Positions 17,146 through 21,449 of a stretch of 64,000 nt of DNA are shown here, piece after piece (the first letter of the stretch is position 1; each line of letters starts with the position of its first letter). The DNA comes from Cognatishimia sp. 1_MG-2023 (GTDB lineage: Bacteria; Pseudomonadota; Alphaproteobacteria; Rhodobacterales; Rhodobacteraceae), in contig NZ_JAUORX010000006.1 in assembly GCF_030548175.1 (NCBI RefSeq), forward strand, positions 1-64,000. The letters are read 5' to 3'. A model generated the notes under the pieces. The model was not told the origin of the DNA, ran no database searches, and saw only the letters and a list, made by a program, of their open reading frames with translations. Position numbers and translations under genes: made by a program.

Positions 17146-17670
17146 TTATTGGCCTTCCGGTTTAGGCGGACAAAAGTCAGGGGCTGGATCGCCGTCAAAG
17201 ACAACCTCGCCACAGGCGTTAATTTGGTGCCAGGCAAAGCCCCGGCCGTCAGGCATAATCGCGATCACGCGGTCGATGCCATAGTGAATGTTTTGCGTCC
17301 CCATAAAGGCCAAAGCCTCGCCGTTTTCCAACGCTTCACCGATTTCAACCGCATCAAAGCAGCCAAACCAGTCAGGCGCGATCAGGGGCTCTGCCGTTTC
17401 ATAGGGCACATAGGTTTCCGTCATCATCGCTTGGCTTTGCGATGTGGTGAAACAGGCGCGATACCGGATCGGAGAAGAGTCCGCGTCAATCGCTTCGAAG
17501 TCTTCAAACAAGATCGGGTCCGGCTGGCCAGTGGCCATCAGGGTCATCTGAACGTCGGTGTCACCGGTTGCAGCAACAGGTTCGTAATAAGCCTGCGTTT
17601 GAAAATAATAGAGCGCGATGCCCATCGCCAAAGCAGACACAACTAGAAACCCCGCCAAAAACTTACCCAT
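17146..17670 (-). CDS. DUF6446-family membrane-anchored protein inside the glyQ-glyS operon
   Basis: A 174-aa protein starting [10 protein letters not shown] with one N-terminal membrane segment (about residues 5-22) and an outside domain containing RYRACFTTSQSQAMMTETY, PDWFGCFDAV and a C-terminal INACGEVVFDG / PDFCPPK region; its four Cys could form two disulfides in the periplasm (inference). It matches what I know as DUF6446, a family seen at this position in Rhodobacterales. The ATG overlaps the glyQ stop as TGATG, so the longer frame to 17718 is rejected. Function unknown. Being locked between the two synthetase subunit genes means it is made in step with them. Confidence 0.8.
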   Translation of the reverse strand: MGKFLAGFLVVSALAMGIALYYFQTQAYYEPVAATGDTDVQMTLMATGQPDPILFEDFEAIDADSSPIRYRACFTTSQSQAMMTETYVPYETAEPLIAPDWFGCFDAVEIGEALENGEALAFMGTQNIHYGIDRVIAIMPDGRGFAWHQINACGEVVFDGDPAPDFCPPKPEGQ

Positions 17671-18599
17671 CACGCCGCGGCCCCGCCTGCTGCGGTTTGC
17701 ACAAAGGCATCCGCGCATTGCTTGGACAGCGCGCGCACGCGCCCGATATAGGCCTGACGTTCGGTGACAGAGATCACACCGCGCGCGTCAAGCAGGTTAA
17801 AGATGTGGCTGGCTTTGATGCACTGATCATAGGCCGGATGCGCCATGATGATGGTCTTGCCGGTTTTCGGATCAACGTGCTCTTGCGCCAGAATGTTTTC
17901 ACACTCGGCTTCCGCCTCTTCGAAATGACGCAGCAGCACCTCGGTGTTGGCCACATCAAAGTTCCAACGTGCGTATTCTTCTTCGGTCTGCTTGAACACA
18001 TCACCATAAGACAGCGGGATCAAAGCATCCGGGTCGTTATATGGCATGTCCATCACGTGATCGACGCCAAGGATATACATCGCCAGACGTTCCAAACCAT
18101 AGGTCAGCTCGCCTGACACCGGATGGCAATCATGGCCGCCAACCTGTTGGAAATAGGTGAACTGGCTGACTTCCATGCCGTCACACCAAACTTCCCAGCC
18201 AAGACCCCAAGCGCCCAATGTTGGGCTTTCCCAGTCATCCTCGACGAAACGGATGTCGTGCATTTCCATATCAATGCCGATCGCTTTCAGCGATCCCAGA
18301 TACAGCTCTTGCAGGTTGGGTGGGCTTGGCTTGATCAGCACTTGGTACTGATAATAATGCTGCAAGCGGTTCGGGTTCTCGCCATAGCGGCCATCGGTTG
18401 GCCGACGGGATGGTTGCACATAGGCCGCAGCCCATGGTTTTGACCCAAGCGACCGCAGGGTCGTTGCCGGGTGGAACGTACCTGCACCGACTTCCATGTC
18501 ATAAGGTTGCATCACCGCGCAGCCCTTCTCAGCCCAATAGGCCTGAAGCCGCAGGATGATCTCTTGGAATGACCGTGGTTTGCTGTCCGTATTCGCCAT
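17670..18599 (-). CDS. glyQ: Glycine--tRNA ligase, alpha subunit
   Basis: A 309-aa class II synthetase catalytic chain. It starts with the [20 protein letters not shown] helix, followed by the [17 protein letters not shown] motif, [20 protein letters not shown] (motif 2 region) and [14 protein letters not shown] (motif 3). With GlyS it charges tRNA-Gly with glycine using ATP. It is the first gene of a three-gene operon (glyQ, DUF6446, glyS). The 150-base gap upstream separates it from a divergent gene and must contain both promoters. Confidence 0.98.
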
Positions 18600-18751: not shown

Positions 18752-20506
18752 ATGCCGCGCTTTCTTTTAACTATTCTATTTGCGGTCGTCATGACGACAC
18801 GCGCCGCCTTTGCCCAGCAAGAAGACGCCGTTTGGGTGCAAGTCGAAGCCCAACCAAGTCTTGCACAAGCAAATCGCCAAATCATTAATTATGCCAACCG
18901 GTTACAGGACGTAAACGGTTTTGCACTTGGTGGTGGTTGGTACGGAATTGCCCTTGGCCCATACAATCGCGCCGATGCAGAAACCGTCTTGCGCGCCTAT
19001 CGCCGCGACGGCCTTATTCCGCGCGACGCCTACATTACATTCACCTCATCCTTTGAAAGCCAATTCTGGCCAATCGGTGCGAATCTTTTGAATGTACGGG
19101 TGGAAACACCTGCAGCAGAGCCCCTCGCCCAGCCAGAAGCACAACCCGCTGCACAAATCGCGCCTGAAACTGAAACAATTGTGCCAGACGAAACACCTCG
19201 CGAGGCCCGCGCCAGCGAAGCGCAGCTGACACGCGACGAAAAGAAAGAACTGCAATCCTGGTTGAAATGGGCAGGCTTTTACAATGCCGCGATTGATGGT
19301 TCTTACGGTCGTGGCACCCGCGCCTCTATGTCCGCATGGCAGGCCGCAAACGGCTACGAAACAACTGGCGTTCTAACCACAGCACAGCGCGCAGCCCTAA
19401 AAGGCCAGTACAACGCGGTTCTCGACGGTCTTGGCCTACAATCCGTTTCCAACTTTGACGCGGGCATCGAAATGATGATCCCAACCGAAGTGGTCTCGCT
19501 GAAATCCGCAGAATACCCATTCGTCACATACACTCCGACAGCTGACCTGGATGCACAGGTCGTGATGATCAGCCAAACCGGCGATCAATCCACGCTCTTC
19601 GGCCTGTATGACATCATGCAGACCTTGGACATTGTCCCACTCGAAGGCCCACGCGAACGCAAAGACAACAGCTTTGTTCTGGTCGGCGAAGACGCAGCGC
19701 GCATCAGCCACACCGAAGTCAGCCTGATCCGCGGCGAAATCAAAGGCTTCACTTTGGTCTGGCCATCAGGCGACGAAGAGCGCCGCCGCCGTGTGCTGAC
19801 CGAAATGCGCAGCTCGTTCAACCGGATCGACGGCGTGCTGGACCCATCCGCAGGCTCCAATGCGGTCCAAGACATCGACCTGCTCGCAGGCCTTGAAATC
19901 CGCAAGCCAAAGCTGTCTCGCTCTGGCTTTTACATCGACAACAAAGGCACCGTGATCACTACAGCCGAAGCCGTCGGTAGCTGCCAGCGCATCACTCTAG
20001 ATGACGAATACGATGCGGAATTGGTTGGCGTGAACGATCAACTCGGCGTCGCCGTCCTGCGTCCGCAAACCTCCCTTGCGCCAATCGCAGTGGCGTCATT
20101 TCGCAACTCACAACCGCGCCTGAAATCCGAAGTTGCCGTCGCAGGCTATTCTTTCGGCGGCGTCCTAAGCGCCCCATCCGTTACCTTCGGCACACTCTCT
20201 GACCTACGTGGCCTCGAAGGCGAAGAAACCCTAACGCGTCTCGCCCTCGCGCCCCTCCCAGGTGACGCAGGCGGCCCAGTCTTTGATACAGGCGGCTCAG
20301 TTGTTGGCATGCTGCTTCCAAAAGCAGACGGCACCAGCCGCCAACTACCAGGCGACGTCAGCTTCGCCGCCAGCGGCGACGCCATCCGCGCCCTGCTGAC
20401 CCAAGAAGGCATCACAACAGACGCGGGCGAGTCCCTCGGCATCATGGCCCCCGAAGACCTAACCGCCCTCGCAGGCGACATGACCGTCCTCGTCAGCTGC
20501 TGGTAA
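18752..20506 (+). CDS. Secreted SPOR / peptidoglycan-binding protein with inactive trypsin-like domain
   Basis: A 584-aa protein with a signal peptide (cleavage near AAFA/QQE). Residues about 25-95 look like a SPOR domain (VWVQVEAQPS, GGWYGIALGPYNRADAE), which binds denuded septal glycan. A Pro/Ala/Glu-rich linker follows, then a PG_binding_1 domain (about 155-215; LKWAGFYNAAIDGSYGRGT). After a middle region of unknown type comes a trypsin/HtrA-like fold (about 390-545). In it the three catalytic positions are changed: TTAEAVGSC where TxxHxx is expected, NDQLGVAVL where the Asp stands, and PGDAGGPV in place of GDSGGP. It is probably a wall-bound binding protein and not a peptidase (inference). 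Terminator follows at 20529. Confidence 0.82.
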   Translation: MPRFLLTILFAVVMTTRAAFAQQEDAVWVQVEAQPSLAQANRQIINYANRLQDVNGFALGGGWYGIALGPYNRADAETVLRAYRRDGLIPRDAYITFTSSFESQFWPIGANLLNVRVETPAAEPLAQPEAQPAAQIAPETETIVPDETPREARASEAQLTRDEKKELQSWLKWAGFYNAAIDGSYGRGTRASMSAWQAANGYETTGVLTTAQRAALKGQYNAVLDGLGLQSVSNFDAGIEMMIPTEVVSLKSAEYPFVTYTPTADLDAQVVMISQTGDQSTLFGLYDIMQTLDIVPLEGPRERKDNSFVLVGEDAARISHTEVSLIRGEIKGFTLVWPSGDEERRRRVLTEMRSSFNRIDGVLDPSAGSNAVQDIDLLAGLEIRKPKLSRSGFYIDNKGTVITTAEAVGSCQRITLDDEYDAELVGVNDQLGVAVLRPQTSLAPIAVASFRNSQPRLKSEVAVAGYSFGGVLSAPSVTFGTLSDLRGLEGEETLTRLALAPLPGDAGGPVFDTGGSVVGMLLPKADGTSRQLPGDVSFAASGDAIRALLTQEGITTDAGESLGIMAPEDLTALAGDMTVLVSCW

Positions 20507-20528
20507 GCCAAGCCCCACGAAACAACGA

Positions 20529-20559
20529 AAAGCCCGCTTCATCGAAGCGGGCTTTTTAG
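20529..20559 (+). terminator. Rho-independent terminator
   Basis: A 13-pair stem (AAAAGCCCGCTTC / GAAGCGGGCTTTT) with loop ATC and a TTTTT tail, 22 bases after the SPOR/protease-like gene. The A-run on the left arm also makes it usable for the convergent ArsR gene. Confidence 0.88.
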
Positions 20560-20576
20560 CATCTAACGTAATGGGC

Positions 20577-20903
20577 CTAGCAGCCCTGATCGCCTAAACA
20601 GCAACTCCGCACCGTTGGATGGTTTTGACAGCAATCCGTCAGAATATACCCCATCAATTCTCCTAACGTTTCAAACCGCACATGATACCTGATTTGCTTG
20701 GCTTCCCGCGTTGCACTGACCAAACCAGCCTTGGCCAAAGCTGACAGATGAAAAGAGGCCCGCGACGGCGCCGCATCCGTTTGCGCGCTAATGTCCCCAG
20801 CTGTCATGCCACCCTCTCCGGCGACAACCAACAACCGCAACATCCGCAACCGCGTTTCCCCGGACAATGCCGAAAACGCCTGTAAGGCTTCCGCTTCCTT
20901 CAT
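20577..20903 (-). CDS. ArsR-family transcriptional regulator
   Basis: A 108-aa winged-helix protein: LSGETRLRMLRLLVVAGEGG at the start, the recognition helix in RASFHLSALAKAGLVSATRE, and a wing at KQIRYHVRFETL. The C-terminal tail is Cys-rich (DCCQNHP, RSCCLGDQGC), which could bind a soft metal or arsenite, although the usual ELCVCDL site in the DNA-binding helix is not present. It is divergent from the DUF6428 gene; two dyads of the TTCAA-N6-TTGAA type lie in the 66-base gap, one touching its own start codon. Autorepression is likely (inference). Confidence 0.88.
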   Translation of the reverse strand: MKEAEALQAFSALSGETRLRMLRLLVVAGEGGMTAGDISAQTDAAPSRASFHLSALAKAGLVSATREAKQIRYHVRFETLGELMGYILTDCCQNHPTVRSCCLGDQGC

Positions 20904-20952: not shown

Positions 20953-20971
20953 ATTCAAGAATCATTGAAAT
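20953..20971. promoter_or_regulatory. ArsR-type operator dyad 2
   Basis: ATTCAA-GAATCA-TTGAAAT; the arms TTCAA/TTGAA and the 6-base spacer match dyad 1, read in the opposite direction. It overlaps the first possible ATG of the DUF6428 gene, so binding would block that gene's promoter or start. Confidence 0.6.
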
Positions 20972-21449
20972 GAAAGCCCTCCCTATGTCCCTAGAAAACC
21001 TACTGACCCTATTAGGCGAAAAATCCTCAGCCGCGCCCCTCATCTTTTCCACCAAAGACGGCGACATCGGCGGTGGCTATCATGTGACTGAACTGAAGTC
21101 GGCTAAGATCACCAGCATCGACTGCGGCGGCAACGTAGCAGATTGGACCGAAGCCACGTTGCAGCTATTGGATGGTGGCGACGGGACACACATGACTGTC
21201 AGCAAATTCAGCGCAATTCTCAGCCACAGCCTCAAAACCATACCCGCCTTGAAAGACGCCCCACTGTACGCCGAGTACGCGCCACAAAACACACAGCTCT
21301 CGCGCTACGACGTTTCATTGCAGCAGACTGATAATTCAATGGCAGAAATTCGGCTGACTGACATGCAGGCCCTGTGCAAACCGGCCCAAAACCAATCCTG
21401 CGGTCCAAAATGCGGCCCCACTGCACCACAAAAACGCGCCTGCTGCTAA
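20970..21449 (+). CDS. DUF6428-family protein paired with ArsR regulator
   Basis: A 159-aa cytosolic protein that I assign to DUF6428, a family usually found next to an ArsR regulator. Its core is the IFSTKDGDIGGGYHVTELKS segment, and ITSIDCGGNVADWTEATLQL follows; the C-terminus is Cys-rich (QNQSCGPKCGPT, KRACC), which suggests metal or arsenic binding, but no function is established from sequence. The ATG at 20970 overlaps an operator dyad; the ATG at 20985 (MSLENLL) may be the real start, giving 154 aa. Neither has a clear ribosome site. The gene runs straight into the hisG terminator hairpin. Confidence 0.8.
   Translation: MKALPMSLENLLTLLGEKSSAAPLIFSTKDGDIGGGYHVTELKSAKITSIDCGGNVADWTEATLQLLDGGDGTHMTVSKFSAILSHSLKTIPALKDAPLYAEYAPQNTQLSRYDVSLQQTDNSMAEIRLTDMQALCKPAQNQSCGPKCGPTAPQKRACC

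Follow-up and report, generated by a model that had tools for sequence, protein, structure and literature searches.

Many serine peptidases of the S1C (HtrA) type share a C-terminal PDZ domain. Within the Alphaproteobacteria, the HtrA-type domain of the magnetosome protein MamO, with its degenerate triad, is described as having lost catalysis and been repurposed (PMC4794232), and MamO is the one worked-out bacterial trypsin-fold pseudoprotease that our literature search turned up. Further features given for it in the same source are a residue other than glycine at position 193, a tryptophan in loop L1, a surface di-histidine metal site and a TauE membrane domain (PMC4794232). A further S1C domain, that of RsgI9, is said to serve polysaccharide binding (PMC12203970). 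Among proteins with a SPOR domain, Dshi_0924 is reported as abundant in the vesicles of Dinoroseobacter (PMC7901474).

Here we describe a putatively secreted protein from Cognatishimia sp. 1_MG-2023, encoded in a 64,000-nucleotide stretch of DNA (hereafter the window). It is a repurposed S1C protease of MamO's sort, yet distinct from MamO, and we found no description of it in the openly licensed literature. With the S1C proteases of the HtrA, DegP and DegS type the window protein has fold and sequence in common (Pfam Trypsin_2, E 5.7e-18; DegS, Z 15.9), but it differs from them in having no triad, no PDZ match and a set of N-terminal wall-binding domains. Because the S1C fold is present and the S1C triad absent, we class it as a pseudoprotease homologue of these enzymes and not as a peptidase.

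The comparison with MamO is instructive: the triad is degenerate in both, and the two proteins are convergent in idea. However, the window protein keeps glycine at the equivalent of position 193 (G504, in a loop that reads PLPGDAGGP), has no histidine in the domain and combines it with wall-binding partners: it is not MamO. A MamO-like metal site is ruled out by the same lack of histidine. No MamO entry occurs among the structure matches listed, which is no evidence against kinship. RsgI9 shares the S1C fold, but it comes from another phylum and is a membrane anti-sigma factor that also carries an NTF2 domain. The closest trypsin domains are those of intact alphaproteobacterial proteins (L082, L099-L124 and others), which end in the same C-terminal cysteine tail; these differ in carrying H/D/S in 37 of 37 cases and in having glyQ at none of their 37 loci, two of which have only short upstream sequence (99 and 849 bases).

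Domain layout and genomic setting

The gene occupies positions 18752..20506 of the forward strand, in the frame and at the coordinates first assigned to it, and encodes 584 amino acids. A hydrophobic stretch ending in AFAQ, recognised by eye, marks a putative signal peptide (residues 1-22; 18752..18817). It is followed on the same strand by a SPOR-like domain (residues 24-112; 18821..19087), a linker, a PG_binding_1 domain (residues 162-216; 19235..19399), a middle domain without a Pfam family (residues about 228-360; 19433..19831) and a triad-less trypsin domain of S1C/HtrA type (residues 386-584; 19907..20503), within which the Trypsin_2 profile covers residues 391-520. A Pfam search of the 584-residue protein with a limit of E 1 shows no PDZ family.

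A preliminary description of this DNA had called the SPOR and PG_binding_1 domains normal and had proposed that the protein binds septal or bare glycan. For PG_binding_1 the first statement stands: the match scores 44.9 bits against a curated cut-off of 23 (E 1.3e-11), and the profile picks up all 13 of the aligned members at E≤1. The SPOR profile, however, scores 14.0 bits here, under its cut-off of 21 (E 0.065), and reaches E≤1 in 11 of the 13 aligned members (best 1.4e-4). Domain profiles thus point to wall anchoring strongly in the case of PG_binding_1 and weakly in the case of SPOR. The same description had overlooked the middle domain, whose predicted fold appears to resemble PsbP and Mog1.

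That resemblance comes from structure prediction. The AlphaFold model of the whole protein is weak overall (pTM 0.47), with block means of pLDDT in the middle domain of 83-93. A Foldseek search with this model returns PsbP as the first PDB match (2xb3; E 3.7e-6, TMt 0.53) and Mog1p at rank 43; since the rows carry no query range, fold class and size are what place both matches on the middle domain. Modelled alone, the trypsin domain is better defined (pTM 0.76, mean pLDDT 74.5). Its structural matches include DegS at Z 15.9 (rmsd of 4.3 over 156) and HtrA1 at Z 15.6 (rmsd of 3.0 over 151). Fold and profile together agree with the earlier claim that the trypsin scaffold has been kept. Confidence in the domain model is lowest in the loops of the cleft, at around residues 487-505 and 526-536, where pLDDT is below 50, and for this reason the triad sites are placed by sequence alignment and not by the model; that the cleft is open is, for the same reason, something that we infer.

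Upstream, and divergently transcribed, lies glyQ (17670..18599, reverse strand), named from its sequence and its pairing with glyS and not by a profile search. The intergenic region between the two genes is 152 bases long. A terminator-like hairpin of 13 pairs (20528..20556) begins 22 bases past the last base of the stop codon; it has a T-run on both strands, being listed on the reverse strand, with the tail on the forward strand read from the sequence. Because of the intergenic region on one side and the hairpin on the other, the gene probably stands alone. Divergent glyQ is found upstream in 130 of the 132 triad-less-type loci with at least 900 bases of upstream sequence, L174 and L178 being the only exceptions; the other 70 of the 202 such loci have less than 900 bases upstream and were left unscored. 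In our reading a place beside glyQ marks orthology, and we claim no functional link.

Several neighbouring genes may be noted in passing. Between glyQ and glyS the window encodes a secreted-looking protein (17146-17718, reverse strand); where the flank is long enough, most relatives have a match to it next to glyQ (43-79% identity among the matches listed). Beyond the hairpin are a gene for an ArsR-like regulator, identified by eye, with a cysteine-rich tail (20577-20903, reverse strand) and, divergent from it, a gene for a 159-residue protein that is likewise cysteine-rich at its end (20970-21449, forward strand).

The triad sites and their ancestry

The preliminary description had read the three catalytic positions from the motifs TTAEAV, LGVAVL and GDAGGP, and had concluded that all three catalytic residues are gone. 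These motifs begin at residues 403, 431 and 504. The His site is thus E406 (19967..19969), the Asp site G432 (20045..20047) and the Ser site A506 (20267..20269), all on the forward strand. The reading is borne out by the nearest related trypsin domains elsewhere: in every one of the 37 intact relatives the corresponding columns read H, D and S. A misalignment of the triad is ruled out, given that the residues of these relatives align at 406, 432 and 506.

We then counted residues at the three sites in 195 aligned trypsin-bearing relatives, the window protein included. This number is what remains of 199 aligned rows after removal of four without a trypsin region; it includes congeners as well as near-duplicates such as L003 and L027, and the loci come from 120 of the listed genomes, hand-picked and not random. 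One locus (L076) is split over two frames. None of the three catalytic residues is present in 186 of the relatives, one in nine, and two or three in none. The His site holds E in 109, D in 33, A in 20, Q in 18 and H in two, with other residues in the rest; the Asp site is G in 180 and D in two, again with others; and the Ser site is A in 134, V in 30, S in five, with others. To the question of whether the E/G/A combination is conserved in orthologues the answer is therefore no: glycine at the Asp site is close to fixed, but the His and Ser sites vary. No histidine occurs in the trypsin domain of the window protein, the sole histidine of which (H320) lies outside it, and 82 of the 195 domains, this one included, lack histidine altogether.

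The history of the loss was assessed with a tree of 92 trypsin domains from which the triad columns had been removed. The 54 triad-less domains are separated from the 38 intact ones by one change, at a branch with an SH-aLRT value of 100. The intact rows are the 37 intact relatives, of which 26 were drawn from the class search (L099-L124) and 11 from Rhodobacteraceae, together with L015, a DegP-like protein from the same genome. A first tree had given three label changes, with L088 and L158 labelled by score; both fall under the score limit and outside the 195, and both were relabelled triad-less for the second tree, the triad sites of L158 being E, G and T and L088 retaining Asp alone. Several independent losses are unsupported, given a single change on a tree built without the columns in question. 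Because intact domains span other families of the class and HtrA proteins generally, loss of the triad is probably the derived state.

The gene is close to universal in this large marine family. Matches were found in 349 of 394 sampled Rhodobacteraceae genomes at E≤1e-10 (338 at E≤1e-25), in 187 of 196 genomes of the order sample, all of them listed as Rhodobacteraceae, and in nine of nine genomes of the genus. Named relatives include Shimia, Pseudooceanicola, Primorskyibacter, Aquicoccus, Marivivens and a Tateyamaria. The class sample gave matches in 38 of 289 genomes; four of these are Rhodobacteraceae, and the rest are weak and nearly all to the trypsin part.

Conservation and natural variants

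Recent decay into a pseudogene is ruled out by frames that are open in the relatives and by a dN/dS in the trypsin domain of 0.024, 0.048 and 0.018 in the three usable close pairs (dS is near-saturated for the last), values similar to those of the other domains. Averaged over 3000 sampled pairs, pairwise identity comes to 0.46 in the trypsin, 0.48 in the middle, 0.47 in the SPOR-like and 0.57 in the PG_binding_1 domain. Together with the absence of any full or two-thirds triad among the 195 relatives, the single split in the tree and the lack of histidine in the window's domain, this purifying selection upholds the earlier proposal of a pseudoprotease: it is an ancient one, fixed in Rhodobacteraceae, and not a product of recent decay.

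Residues other than the triad have been kept or newly fixed. Two cysteines, C411 (19982..19984) and C583, in a C-terminal CW tail (20498..20500), both on the forward strand, are present in 195 of 195 domains and in the intact relatives also, and are probable disulfide partners; 194 of the 195 domains contain exactly two cysteines, and one domain stretch, probably an artefact, contains 12 cysteines and 19 histidines. The GDxGGP loop is retained, with glycine at the oxyanion-hole position (G504) in 186 of 195. Residues fixed specifically in the triad-less lineage include G432, R496 and D505. Arginine at 496 occurs in 183 of 195 triad-less relatives, against glutamine in 34 of 37 intact ones; aspartate at 505 likewise occurs in 183 of 195, against asparagine in 34 of 37; and 180 of 195 combine R496 with D or E at position 505. 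It is a guess on our part that an R496-D505 salt bridge replaces the old catalytic network.

Three loci lack the domain. Two from one genus (L086 and L092) and one from another (L077) lie at the glyQ locus and encode proteins that have the SPOR-like, PG_binding_1 and middle domains and end before the trypsin domain; the four-domain hit to L077 stops at residue 363-366, and tblastn finds no trace of trypsin at any of the three loci. Since all three have lost it at the same place, the trypsin domain is dispensable in some lineages. A further candidate for a trypsin-less form, L143, was dropped because it runs into a contig end. L092 contains two SPOR-like matches.

The opposite combination is represented by L082, a protein of 689 amino acids from Rhodobacteraceae in which SPOR-like, PG_binding_1 and partial middle domains precede a trypsin domain with intact H/D/S. 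It has no glyQ in its flanks and is the sole matching gene region of its genome; it is either an active ancestral form or a recombinant. The family is thus widespread, sits at one fixed locus and comes in natural variants (intact trypsin, triad-less and domain-free orthologues), and for these reasons the role of a dead protease domain at the cell wall is directly testable in common laboratory strains.

Function of the triad-less domain

Our main reading, to which we assign a probability of roughly 0.55, is that the gene encodes a secreted, peptidoglycan-anchored pseudoprotease whose S1C domain lost its triad once, early in Rhodobacteraceae, and has since been kept in a non-catalytic state. Because the cutting residues were lost long ago and the domain is under strong selection, the protein probably binds instead of cutting. 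A wall-anchored binding or scaffold module is the simplest reading, given that the window's domain has neither nucleophile nor histidine and retains the oxyanion loop. For such reuse of an HtrA-type domain MamO is the precedent (PMC4794232). That the protein may bind septal glycan, or else a peptide or a partner protein, as first suggested, is plausible.

SPOR domains attach to denuded glycan at the septum, PG_binding_1 is regarded as a peptidoglycan-binding domain, and the clefts of HtrA proteins accommodate extended peptides. Against this background the protein would be exported to the periplasm, where PG_binding_1 and the SPOR-like domain would attach it to the wall, perhaps at the site of division. 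There, with a C411-C583 disulfide presumably in place, the former substrate cleft may hold, uncut, a peptide or the protein tail of a wall-remodelling partner. A bolder version, which we advance tentatively and think rather less likely than otherwise, is that of a near-universal wall-anchored receptor of Rhodobacteraceae: the ex-protease cleft would hold a signal in peptide form, either the tail of a protein or a stem peptide of the wall, and relay it to the division or wall-remodelling machinery. If true, a whole bacterial family would have a housekeeping pseudoprotease that has so far gone unnamed.

Other explanations differ chiefly in what they ask of the trypsin fold. It could be a ligand-free structural cap, retained because its loss or misfolding would harm the protein, with the work being done by the SPOR-like, PG_binding_1 and PsbP-like domains. 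We regard this as rather unlikely. It would accommodate the three orthologues that stop short of the trypsin domain yet retain the other domains, the free variation at the His and Ser sites, and the fact that non-synonymous divergence is highest in the trypsin domain of the four in five of six congeners of the window. These three orthologues and this divergence also weigh against our main reading, as do the sub-threshold SPOR score and the low confidence of the cleft loops. However, the low dN/dS (0.018-0.048), the retained GDxGGP loop and the newly fixed R496 and D505 suggest constraint beyond the fold, even if these features could themselves serve stability. That the protein is still a peptidase, acting through other residues or by an unusual mechanism, we consider very improbable: in its favour are the retained fold and oxyanion-hole glycine, but the Ser site has no nucleophile, 82 of the 195 domains, the window's among them, have no histidine to call on, and there are no cysteines apart from the invariant two.

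The two remaining alternatives borrow from described proteins. As in RsgI9 of Clostridium thermocellum, a protease-like S1C domain of which is said to bind cellulose (PMC12203970), the fold could have become a glycan-binding module and so a third contact with the wall beside SPOR and PG_binding_1. The RsgI9 structure (7sjy) matches both of our models, but its likeness is that of any S1C fold, and we identified no aromatic platform or sugar site; we hold this to be improbable. Scarcely better are the prospects of a non-cutting activator of a true HtrA protease in the same cell, after the manner of MamO, which is reported to activate MamE-dependent proteolysis (PMC4794232). Potential clients exist in the form of five other Trypsin_2 genes in the genome, two of them long (open frames of 525 and 506 amino acids). 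On the other hand, the gene is linked to no HtrA gene, glyQ being the only conserved neighbour found, and activation by MamO reportedly needs its TauE domain (PMC4794232), to which the window protein has no Pfam match.

As a separate observation on this genome, two short Trypsin_2 genes (L250 and L248) lie side by side on the same strand of contig C18 (130657-131872).
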